Part shown: one piece after another, positions 20,086 through 64,000 of the stretch
How the letters are laid out: each line of letters opens with the position of its first letter
How positions within the stretch are numbered: the first letter of the stretch is position 1
Source: Oscillospiraceae bacterium
GTDB taxonomy: Bacteria > Bacillota > Clostridia > Oscillospirales > Acutalibacteraceae
Assembly: GCA_015066105.1 (NCBI GenBank)
Contig: SVOY01000013.1
Location: forward strand, 1 to 64,000
DNA length: 64,000 nt
Reading direction: 5' to 3'
Notes under the pieces: generated by a model
The model's input: only the letters and a program-made list of their open reading frames with translations
What the model was told of the DNA's origin: nothing
Databases searched by the model: none
Position numbers and translations under genes: made by a program

Positions 20086-20113
20086 AAAAGAGAGCCGTTT
20101 CCGACTCTCTTTT
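20086..20113 (-). terminator. terminator of the arabinofuranosidase gene
   Basis: AAAAGAGAG (20086-20094) pairs with CTCTCTTTT (20105-20113), extended by an inner CG pair. On the minus strand it continues TTTTTC. It lies about 65 bases past the stop codon. Confidence 0.8.
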
Positions 20114-20121
20114 GTTATTTT

Positions 20122-20170
20122 GCTCGCCGCGGGGCGTTACTTTTTAAAAAAAGTAACACAAAAACTTTTA
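20122..20170 (-). repeat. 3'-UTR palindromic element, copy 1
   Basis: This is a divergent copy of a dispersed element also found at 35385, 35860 and 62584. A palindrome (GTTACTTTTT/AAAGTAAC, 20136-20157) is flanked on one side by CTCGCCGCGGGGC and on the other by ACAAAAACTTTTA. Read with the arabinofuranosidase gene, it begins six bases after the stop codon and precedes the terminator. Confidence 0.7.
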
Positions 20171-20175
20171 TTGCT

Positions 20176-35369: not shown

Positions 35370-35384
35370 GAAAAGTAAAGACAA

Positions 35385-35436
35385 GAAAAGTTTTTTGGTT
35401 ACTTTTTTTCAAAAAAGTAACGCCTGACCGGCGAGG
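35385..35436 (+). repeat. 3'-UTR palindromic element, copy 2
   Basis: A perfect palindrome (35398-35421, arms GTTACTTTTTT) follows AAAAGTTTTTTG and precedes GCCTGACCGGCGAGG. Read with the acyl-CoA synthetase gene it begins about 15 bases after the stop codon and is followed by the terminator. Confidence 0.75.
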
Positions 35437-35477
35437 TCAATAAGCAACAATCAAACTTACTATTAAATAAAATTATT

Positions 35478-35516
35478 GGGGATGTAAAAAAACTCGTTTT
35501 TTTACATCCCCTTTTT
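35478..35516 (+). terminator. terminator of the acyl-CoA synthetase gene
   Basis: GGGGATGTAAAAA (35478-35490) pairs perfectly with TTTTTACATCCCC (35499-35511), followed by five T. Confidence 0.93.
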
Positions 35517-35814: not shown

Positions 35815-35844
35815 AACACCGCCTTGTTTAAACAAAGCGGTGTT
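35815..35844. terminator. 30-base hairpin 3' of the second GPH transporter
   Basis: AACACCGC (35815-35822) pairs with GCGGTGTT (35837-35844), with TTGTTTAAACAA in the centre. The T-run is weak on both sides. Confidence 0.5.
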
Positions 35845-35859
35845 AACTGTTTTATTTGC

Positions 35860-35914
35860 GCTCGCCGCGCAGGCATTACTTTTCTTGTAAGAAAAGTAAT
35901 CAAAAGAACTTTAC
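35860..35914 (-). repeat. 3'-UTR palindromic element, copy 3
   Basis: ATTACTTTTCTT (35875-35886) and AAGAAAAGTAAT (35889-35900) form a 12-bp stem. CTCGCCGCGCAGGC lies on one side and CAAAAGAACTTTAC on the other. Read with the GPH transporter gene it starts about 11 bases after the stop codon and precedes a hairpin. Confidence 0.8.
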
Positions 35915-35925
35915 ATTTTCTTTTA

Positions 35926-51143: not shown

Positions 51144-51265
51144 AAAAAAGGGCACACTCACAAAAGGGATACCTTTCCCCTTGCAAGAAGCCCAGACGGT
51201 CGACTGATATTTACTCCCTCAATCCGTGTGGTGAGCTCCACTTAACCGTCAGTTTCAAGGGAATG
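51144..51265 (-). promoter_or_regulatory. ZTP (pfl) riboswitch with intrinsic terminator, controlling purE
   Basis: In the minus-strand leader, P1 pairs ATTCCCT with AGGGAGT around a conserved-looking GAAACTGACGG segment and a GTGG/CCAC stem. The hallmark CCGTCTGGGC follows. Its GGGC (51190-51193) is the start of a terminator stem pairing with GCCC (51150-51153), followed by TTTTTT. Ligand (ZTP/ZMP) binding would hold the CTGGGC in a pseudoknot and prevent termination, so the operon is switched on when AICAR-derived nucleotide builds up from lack of 10-formyl-THF. The aptamer is about 51190-51265. Confidence 0.82.
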
Positions 51266-51299
51266 CGTCGGCATAAAAACCGACAAAATTTATGTTGAA

Positions 51300-62533: not shown

Positions 62534-62566
62534 CAAAAAAACGCTCACGGAAAATTCCGTGAGCGT
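62534..62566 (-). terminator. terminator of the mmsA gene
   Basis: ACGCTCACGGAA (62541-62552) pairs with TTCCGTGAGCGT (62555-62566). On the minus strand it is followed by seven T. Confidence 0.92.
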
Positions 62567-62583
62567 ATCTTTTTACCTCTTGC

Positions 62584-62639
62584 CCTCGCCGGGCAGGCAT
62601 TACTTTTCTTGAAAGAAAAGTAACCAAAAGAACTTTACC
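62584..62639 (-). repeat. 3'-UTR palindromic element, copy 4
   Basis: TTACTTTTCTT (62601-62611) and AAGAAAAGTAA (62614-62624) form the central stem, flanked by CTCGCCGGGCAGGC and CCAAAAGAACTTTAC. Read with the mmsA gene it lies after the stop codon (36 bases, including a GCGGCttCGCCGC-like hairpin) and before the terminator. Confidence 0.8.
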
Positions 62640-62674: not shown

Positions 62675-64000
62675 TCACACGCCGCCGCCAACTGAACCGT
62701 CCCAGGTGTCAACGCTTGTAGCCTTCATCTCTTCCTCGTCAAACCAGCGGGTTGTAACAGCCTTTGTCTCTGTGAAGAAGCGGAATGCATCCTTGCCGAG
62801 GCAGTGAAGATTACCGAAGAAGGAGAGCTTGTGTCCCGTGAAGGGGAATACGCCAACGGGTACGGGGATACCAACGTTAACGCCTACCATACCGCCGTCT
62901 GTTCTCTTTGCAAATTCTCTTGCATAGTAGCCGCTCTGAGTGAAGATAACCGAGCCGTTAGCAAAGGGATTGCGGTTCATAAGGGCAAGACCCTCTTCAA
63001 AGTTCTTGACTCTCTTGATGCAAAGCACGGGTCCGAAGATTTCCTGTGTGCCTACGGTCATATCCTCTGTTACATTATCAAGGATTGTGGGACCTACATA
63101 GAAGCCCTTCTCATAGCCCTCTACAACAGCATCGCGACCGTCAAGCACAACGGTTGCACCCTCTTCAATACCCTTGTTGATCCAATCGATAACCGACTTC
63201 TTGTGCTCTGCGGTTACAACGGGACCGAGGGTTGAGCCTTCCTCATAAGCGGGGCCGAGCTTAAGCTCCATAGCAAATTTCTTTATGTAAGCAACAAGCT
63301 CATCAGCAATACTTTCCTGTGCAACAACAACGGGAAGAGCCATGCAACGCTCACCGGCACAGCCGAAGGCTGAGTTGATGATACCTCTTGCACTTCTTTC
63401 AAGGGCGGCATCCTCAAGAACAAGTGCGTGGTTCTTTGCTTCGCAGAGAGCCTGAACGCGCTTACCTGTAGCGGCAGCCTCTTTGTAAACGTGAAGACCG
63501 ACCTTTGTTGAACCGACAAAGGTGATACCCTTAACATCGGGATGCTTAAGGAAAATGTCAGCCTCAACTCTTGAGCAGGTTACAAGGTTAACAACACCCT
63601 TGGGAAGACCTGCTTCAACAAGAAGCTCGTTAAGTCTCATTGCTGTCATGGGAGTCATGGATGCAAGCTTGAGAACGATTGTGTTACCTGCGGCAATACA
63701 GCAGGGAACCATCCAGCCCATGGGAATCATACCGGGGAAGTTGAAGGGAACAATGCCTGCAAAAACACCTACGGGCTCATAGTAAAGAGTTGTGTCGTAG
63801 CCGCTTGAGGTATCTCTCATTGAGTCACCTAAAAGAGCCATAGGTGCACCGATTGCTAATTCAACGGGCTCCTTAACCTTAAGGATGTCACCCTTTGCCT
63901 CTGAAAGCACCTTGCCGTGCTCAAGTGCGCAGAGCTTTGAAAGCTCATCCATATGCTCAATAAGAAGCTCACGGAATTTATATAGCACCTGTACTCTCTT
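62675..64000 (-). CDS. mmsA: CoA-acylating methylmalonate-semialdehyde dehydrogenase (5' part outside window)
   Basis: 441 residues are visible; the frame stays open to the right edge (KRVQVLYKFRELL upstream of the first possible GTG), so the gene starts outside. It is an aldehyde dehydrogenase of the MmsA type. Motifs are NFPGMIPMGWMVPCCIAAGN, FVGSTKVG, the active-site Cys in FGCAGERCMA, QEIFGPVLCIKRV and the typical C-terminus FFTETKAVTTRWF. The reaction is oxidative decarboxylation of methylmalonate or malonate semialdehyde to propionyl- or acetyl-CoA, in valine or myo-inositol breakdown. The Glu-to-other change typical of CoA-dependent members fits ALVLEDA near 192. Confidence 0.9.
   Translation of the reverse strand, partial: KRVQVLYKFRELLIEHMDELSKLCALEHGKVLSEAKGDILKVKEPVELAIGAPMALLGDSMRDTSSGYDTTLYYEPVGVFAGIVPFNFPGMIPMGWMVPCCIAAGNTIVLKLASMTPMTAMRLNELLVEAGLPKGVVNLVTCSRVEADIFLKHPDVKGITFVGSTKVGLHVYKEAAATGKRVQALCEAKNHALVLEDAALERSARGIINSAFGCAGERCMALPVVVAQESIADELVAYIKKFAMELKLGPAYEEGSTLGPVVTAEHKKSVIDWINKGIEEGATVVLDGRDAVVEGYEKGFYVGPTILDNVTEDMTVGTQEIFGPVLCIKRVKNFEEGLALMNRNPFANGSVIFTQSGYYAREFAKRTDGGMVGVNVGIPVPVGVFPFTGHKLSFFGNLHCLGKDAFRFFTETKAVTTRWFDEEEMKATSVDTWDGSVGGGV

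Follow-up and report, generated by a model that had tools for sequence, protein, structure and literature searches.

A dispersed, probably mobile repeat with a predicted intrastrand triplex behind gene ends in an Oscillospiraceae genome

What is a short palindromic element doing four times over between a stop codon and the next terminator, and does it act as RNA or spread as DNA? The question was raised by a 64,000-nucleotide stretch of an Oscillospiraceae genome (contig SVOY01000013.1, positions 1 to 64,000; hereafter, the window). An earlier note on this DNA had listed four copies with their host genes and read them as a transcribed 3′-UTR RNA element rather than as insertions. All four copies are present where they had been placed, between stop codon and terminator, as judged from the sequence and from model matches, and all four have the same polarity relative to the host gene. 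The Pfam assignments of the host genes (arabinofuranosidase, AMP-binding enzyme, MFS_2 transporter and aldehyde dehydrogenase) also agreed with those given.

Copies and anatomy of the element

Copy 1 (20118-20172, minus strand) lies behind the arabinofuranosidase gene and was matched by our covariance model (R1) at 55.7 bits. Copy 2 (35383-35440, plus strand; 75.2 bits) follows the AMP-binding gene, copy 3 (35856-35915, minus strand; 85.0 bits) the MFS_2 transporter gene, and copy 4 (62580-62639, minus strand; 82.6 bits) the aldehyde dehydrogenase gene, whose stop codon is at 62675-62677. Based on the sequence and a hairpin scan, terminator-like hairpins come after copy 1 at 20086-20113 (minus strand), after copy 2 at 35478-35511 (plus strand), after copy 3 at 35815-35844 (minus strand) and after copy 4 at 62541-62566 (minus strand). 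In one scan of 37 hand-picked long open reading frames, all four element-bearing genes were followed by such a hairpin, compared with 5 of the 33 others.

In the element, read 5′ to 3′, a T/C strand (TTCTTTTG) precedes a hairpin (RTTACTTTTCTT/AAGAAAAGTAAY), and a compact pseudoknot comes third. The third (Hoogsteen) strand of copy 4, TTCTTTTG (62625-62632, minus strand), is the parallel complement of the purine arm AAGAAAAG. Its hairpin (62599-62624, minus strand) has the 5′ arm GTTACTTTTCTT (62613-62624), a TC loop and the 3′ arm AAGAAAAGTAAT (62599-62610), with G.T as the outermost pair, and in the pseudoknot (62582-62598, minus strand) GCC (62596-62598) pairs with GGC (62588-62590) and GCCC (62591-62594) with GGGC (62582-62585). 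Copy 1 is the shortest variant, with a third strand of T5 and an arm of A5, and copy 2 is a T6/A6 variant in which a T6 third strand matches. The palindromic core described earlier was confirmed, with the exact arms TTACTTTTCTT/AAGAAAAGTAA found in two of the four copies and a plain T-run and A-run in the other two. The flanks of that description are also there but had been recognized only in part, given that the 15-base flank holds the third strand and the GC-rich flank is a second covarying structure.

A typical copy begins with a short A-rich leader, AAG and the T/C strand with its final G; versions of this strand include TTCTTTTG, TTTTTTTG, TTCTTTGG, TTCTTTG, CTCTTTTG, TTCTTTTTG and others. 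The hairpin has 9-13 bp in 105 of 111 copies (simple finder), with R-TTAC as the usual first bases and a foot that is mostly TTTTG, TTTG or TTTGG, and the stem is a near-perfect, A/T-rich palindrome without a T tract behind it. The segment 3′ of the hairpin, composed of GCC, one base, 3-4 bases, GGC, GA, the complement of those 3-4 bases and an A-rich tail, is a compact H-type pseudoknot. A-rich linkers flank the element on both sides, and beyond about 10 A-rich bases there is no conserved sequence in the window's genus. A few copies (L072, L104 and L106) differ in having a G/C-rich upstream strand that, by eye, is complementary to the loop of the hairpin, the T run keeping its place beside the A run; the resulting topology is that of an H-type pseudoknot whose first loop occupies the deep groove.

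The palindrome pattern occurred at 31 sites in the genome and at none in the reversed control, and 4 of the 31 sites belong to a different repeat. A covariance model built from 27 copies of the window genome retrieved 52 full-length copies from the 2.48 Mb draft (E-values of 4e-6 or better, which are rough; the draft is 85% complete). A scan that looked blindly for hairpins accompanied by a parallel third strand recovered three of the four window copies and nothing in the reversed, complemented and three block-shuffled versions of the window. The aligned sets comprised the 52 own-genome copies (one place was listed twice, and the duplicate was dropped from alignment A2) and 59 copies from relatives, which were sampled around strong matches. 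Also dropped were 20 palindrome half-matches (A4) and, in the third-strand test, 5 copies with a stem shorter than 9 bp. Genes were considered as open reading frames only.

No Rfam family accounted for the element in a gathering scan of the window or in permissive scans of 9 and 7 loci, and a literature search with the literal repeat sequence found no paper on the repeat. Elsewhere in the window, the Rfam scan detected a ZMP/ZTP riboswitch (51183-51266, minus strand). A different repeat that shares the TTACTTTT..AAAAGTAA core and has its own hairpin, CCAAAAGCGTGCTTTTGG, in front was found in four copies (G000:C17:29571 and G000:C23:25025, 25969 and 121609; loci L020, L026 and L027).

Third-strand match and covariation

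The T/C strand runs parallel to the purine arm, with T opposite A, C opposite G and the final G opposite G. Among 184 copies from all lineages with a stem of at least 9 bp, the last 7 bases matched in full (7/7) in 153; over 500 shuffles, the number of full matches averaged 46.9 and never exceeded 62. The window genome alone had 44 full matches in 51 copies (12.2 when shuffled), and the termite, Patescibacteria and other copies had 55 in 76 (shuffled mean of 29.3). Copying errors are not known to give mirror repeats, as opposed to direct or inverted ones, so we take the parallel match of three strands as a sign of selection for a pyrimidine-motif triple helix. Natural covariation that can tell parallel from antiparallel pairing is strong evidence for a selected intrastrand triplex, and the pattern in these sequences suggests a pyrimidine-motif intrastrand triplex of class IV, in which the Hoogsteen strand comes first at the 5′ side, followed by the pyrimidine and the purine strand (Holder et al. 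2015, PMC4666352, in the accessible part of the text).

The class IV (ITxF) rules allow stems of 6-15 nt, loops of 1-6 nt, T.A-T and C.G-C triads and at most one mismatch from 7 nt. In our own implementation they recovered 44 of the 52 own copies, 58 of the 59 relatives' copies and 72 of the 78 termite, Patescibacteria and other copies, with the window copy at 20118 among those failing; the rule alone is unspecific, as its 6 window sites with a stem of at least 7 included 3 element copies and 3 unrelated places (0 in the scrambled window). A separate candidate, in which the upstream strand would pair with the 3′ arm in antiparallel orientation, was rejected, being found 25 times compared with 25.9 by shuffling, that is, at the level of chance.

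The three Watson-Crick helices are 97.9-99.5% paired, in alignments (A2 and A3) that were fitted to the stem and second helix of the model, so that pair counts lean that way, and with the pseudoknot helix absent from the model. In the GCC/GGC pseudoknot helix, the middle pair is G-C instead of C-G in 4 of the 52 and 5 of the 58 distinct rows; the other two pairs are nearly invariant and thereby uninformative on covariation. Both sides of the variable pseudoknot helix are altered in many copies, and the measure of further pair types in A3 was not above shuffles (455 of 500 as high). A lack of compensatory stem changes had been named earlier as grounds for giving up the 3′-UTR RNA reading; the helices do covary.

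The near-perfect palindrome of the stem could also be expected of a double-stranded DNA operator for a dimeric protein, with the structure being incidental. Such an operator leaves the parallel third-strand covariation, the pseudoknot covariation and the variable stem sequence unexplained, and we find it hardly credible. What has been kept, as the covariation shows, is the fold of one strand rather than one particular transcript.

Position, polarity and spread among lineages

To describe the position of the copies, we recorded whether a frame of at least 100 codons ended within 60 nt. A same-strand stop lay upstream of 45 of the 52 own copies and 54 of the 59 relatives' copies (99/111 combined), compared with 289 of 4000 random places in the window. 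On the antisense side, the same rule was passed by 4/52 and 6/59 copies. With the minimum frame lowered to 40 codons, a laxer rule passed also by 1503 of 4000 random places in the window, 50/52 and 55/59 copies were sense, and the stop ended from 21 nt before to 6 nt after the first model position in 43/52 and 52/59. In a second, partly overlapping set from five records that we assign to the window's genus, 40 of 47 copies were sense, 1 was both, 2 were antisense and 4 neither, compared with sense in 236 of 3000 random places at those loci. One copy (L001, 1239-1441) lies behind a T-box leader without a clear gene end. In the window's genus the mRNA nearly always corresponds to the folding strand, and dozens of mRNAs should accordingly carry the predicted fold in their 3′ UTRs.

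A terminator-like hairpin followed within 150 nt (strict rule) in 23/52 own and 32/59 relatives' copies, and 43 of these 55 hairpins start 8-28 nt past the element. Being so often directly before such hairpins, the element could be part of a transcription terminator or a termination enhancer. A separate terminator follows in those cases, however, the A/T-rich stem has no T tract of its own, and a related E. coli triplex motif is without terminator activity in the accessible part of its description (PMC4666352). We therefore regard a role in termination as very unlikely.

A dedicated 3′-UTR RNA element, whose triplex and pseudoknot in the mRNA would block 3′-5′ exonucleases or bind a protein, with all other copies derived or decayed, is a possible explanation that we hold only tentatively. 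The sense polarity behind stops in both sets, the terminator-like hairpins behind 55 of the 111 copies and the A-rich linkers on both sides are consistent with it. Intrastrand triplexes of the pyrimidine type are found in RNA, unlike those of the purine type (PMC4666352, accessible part), so RNA could form the triplex in the polarity of the window's genus only.

Base pairing speaks against a dedicated RNA element, with no wobble preference detected in the window-genus g1 alignments (11 G.T, 10 A.C and 12 others among 2005 cells), compared with 21 G.T in the 250 pairs of 12 tRNAs from the fetched DNA, identified by a program that may not count A.C. The stems had 5 G.T, 1 A.C and 3 others in 2076 pairs, and the 67 neighboring terminators had 16 G.T, 9 A.C and 12 others in 816 pairs. 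Because the triplex itself needs true Watson-Crick pairs, the purity of the stem argues no more than moderately for selection acting on the DNA, and the low G.T share may partly reflect this constraint.

The orthologous loci also argue against a dedicated RNA element. Behind the aldehyde dehydrogenase and AMP-binding genes (30 orthologous loci each, one aldehyde dehydrogenase locus being without the gene end), the element was found only in the window genome and in one relative, G031. Several G031 orthologues keep it as a different variant, with the third strand and both arms altered together. Other orthologues are without the element (G000 vs. relatives), and two G031 elements have window orthologues without it (95% and 74% amino-acid identity). 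At the orthologue 3′ ends (two window genes; G000 vs. relatives), the intergenic DNA is too diverged between species for a clean empty site to be aligned. Copy number within the genus ranged from 0 to 92 matches per genome, which are upper bounds that include half-matches on the other strand. Two loci of the window genome (L104 and L090) have another post-stop repeat, AAAAGTTTTGGTCAAGCTTTTTCAAAAGCTTG, of similar layout, and the orthologous genes in relatives carry the element; AAAAGTTTTGGTCAAGCTTTTTCAAAAGCTTG had no match in the window at up to 3 mismatches.

A pattern scan of 84,980 species genomes returned 86 stretches from two Patescibacteria and from gut Clostridia/Oscillospiraceae, with 90 matches that include the 47 of the window's genus given above. 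Of the 38 matches in termite-gut Oscillospiraceae, 23 were antisense, behind the stop of an opposite-strand gene, with 4 both, 1 sense and 10 neither; random places at the termite loci were antisense in 286 of 3000 cases. The other 5 matches were from one record of uncertain genus (sense), two other Clostridia (1 antisense, 1 neither) and Patescibacteria (1 sense, 1 neither). In a wider termite set of 68 matches, the hairpin lay no more than 45 nt from the end of an opposite-strand gene in 31, and 6 matches were sense and no more than 45 nt from a gene start; two places are counted on both strands. Most termite copies comprise, by eye, the third strand and hairpin only, without the pseudoknot. 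The folding strand in the termite-gut copies is mostly not the mRNA strand, yet the triplex match is kept (the 55 of 76 given above), which again counts against a dedicated RNA element.

In one Patescibacteria genome (G062), all four matches are contained in three larger elements (L337-L339; 357-515 bp) whose ends are inverted repeats, the arms being 19-30 nt long and 80-89% complementary, and the repeat is carried as a cassette. Two of these three elements have the same ends, ACAATCCTTGTAC. The full pattern had no match in viral contigs. A shorter motif, TTTTGGTTACTTTT..AAAAGTAAC, was detected in 5 of 398 genomes of the phylum, including that of the window, with 0 in the reversed control, and two of the other genomes carry it as part of a longer repeat, enclosed by an outer stem. 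Two other Bacillota genomes, G417 (L365, L369, L371, L373, L375 and L377) and G256 (L366), contain a conserved repeat, a few hundred bases long, whose triplex-type hairpin lies inside the outer stem GGTTCC/GGAACC. Its loop and upstream strand differ between L373 and L375, by eye, in a matched manner, and no Rfam match was found for it (L365, L366 and L373).

The earlier reading as transcribed 3′-UTR RNA fits the copies of the window's genus (45/52 and 54/59 sense) and breaks down as a general rule with the termite and Patescibacteria copies. To set it against insertion was a false choice, given the antisense termite copies, the inverted-repeat elements of Patescibacteria, the dispersal and the variable copy number; the family is dispersed, differs strongly in copy number between species and is probably mobile. 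The switch of polarity between genera makes the DNA-versus-RNA question on such repeats directly testable.

Mobility and relation to known systems

Y1 transposases (PF01797, Y1_Tnp) were found in 19 of 33 genomes, including that of the window, and in 7 of 9 genomes of a further set, all counted in incomplete drafts. No Y1_Tnp match was obtained in the drafts of the element-carrying G003, G007, G009, G017, G020 and G022, and the G003 and G022 drafts have many element matches. The element lay near 1 of the 27 Y1 loci fetched. In these searches, no Y1 transposase emerged as a consistent partner of the element. In one termite-gut genome (G059, L349), a 162-aa Y1 transposase gene has element copies on both sides, and the genes flanking it are presumably mreC and mreD.

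A classical REP sequence moved by a RAYT (TnpA-REP) transposase would explain short, multicopy intergenic palindromes close to gene 3′ ends, as known for REPs (PMC3733652, accessible part), and the Y1 transposase gene between two copies in G059. The hairpin foot of the present element is without a GTAG or CGTC tag, and this, together with the six element-carrying drafts lacking a Y1_Tnp match, makes a classical REP quite unlikely. Base triples are known from the contacts of IS200-type transposases (PMC6006769, accessible part) and may be a lead for a mobile mechanism.

We favor, with moderate confidence, a dispersed and probably non-autonomous mobile intrastrand-triplex repeat that has a secondary RNA effect in the window's genus. 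When single-stranded, one DNA strand would fold into a three-stranded hairpin, in which the upstream T/C strand occupies the hairpin's major groove and runs parallel to the purine arm (T.A-T, C.G-C); the compact H-type pseudoknot would come next. We infer that the repeat spreads as DNA via a transposase and is selected by its fold when single-stranded, and that the survivors in the window's genus are mostly those behind stops in the polarity that lets RNA fold. The RNA fold would then slow 3′-5′ decay, its most likely role being to shield the 3′ end of the mRNA behind the terminator. The sequences make an RNA function plausible, and the polarity in the window's genus together with the positions shared by G000 and G031, occupied by differing and internally matched variants, is more than a plain parasite needs. 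Points against a mobile repeat are that no transposase was tied to it, that no clean empty site was found and that the E. coli motif is not associated with mobile elements.

More far-reaching would be a genus-wide module for 3′-end protection, with a triplex and pseudoknot on dozens of mRNAs in RNA-competent polarity, recruited from a mobile DNA repeat that also occurs in Patescibacteria; such a bacterial counterpart of the eukaryotic triple-helix stability elements is speculative, and we consider it doubtful. If the RNA reading is true, a common three-stranded structure tags many mRNA ends in these bacteria.

The sequences suggest that the element belongs to a known class of bacterial repeats, the intrastrand-triplex repeats, of which it is an unusual form. 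Like the PIT elements, BoxC and TM_ECO (PMC4666352), it is a short intergenic repeat that would form three strands from one and varies strongly in copy number between relatives. TM_ECO is a G/C-rich purine motif, whereas the present element is A/T-rich and has a pseudoknot. In the accessible part of the same source, the E. coli triplex motif shows neither a strand bias nor a fixed distance to genes, and it is not linked to mobile elements; unlike TM_ECO, the present element has a preferred polarity, which differs between lineages, and a loop-paired strand in a few copies. With REP, REPIN and BIME sequences (PMC3733652, accessible part) it shares the dispersal of palindromes near gene 3′ ends, and it differs from REPs in its third strand, its pseudoknot and, in the window's genus, its gene-tied polarity.

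The SAM-V riboswitch (PMC6061858, accessible part) likewise places a strand in the deep groove of a stem, and the pairing of upstream strand and loop seen by eye in L072, L104 and L106 would give the same topology. Unlike that riboswitch, the present element lies after the gene, with no known ligand or expression platform and no Rfam match. The MALAT1 triple helix of eukaryotes uses the RNA's own A-rich 3′ end. We claim no homology of the present element to it, but if the RNA reading is right, both would place a U-rich strand against an A-U stem close to the 3′ end of an RNA (PMC11411715, accessible part).
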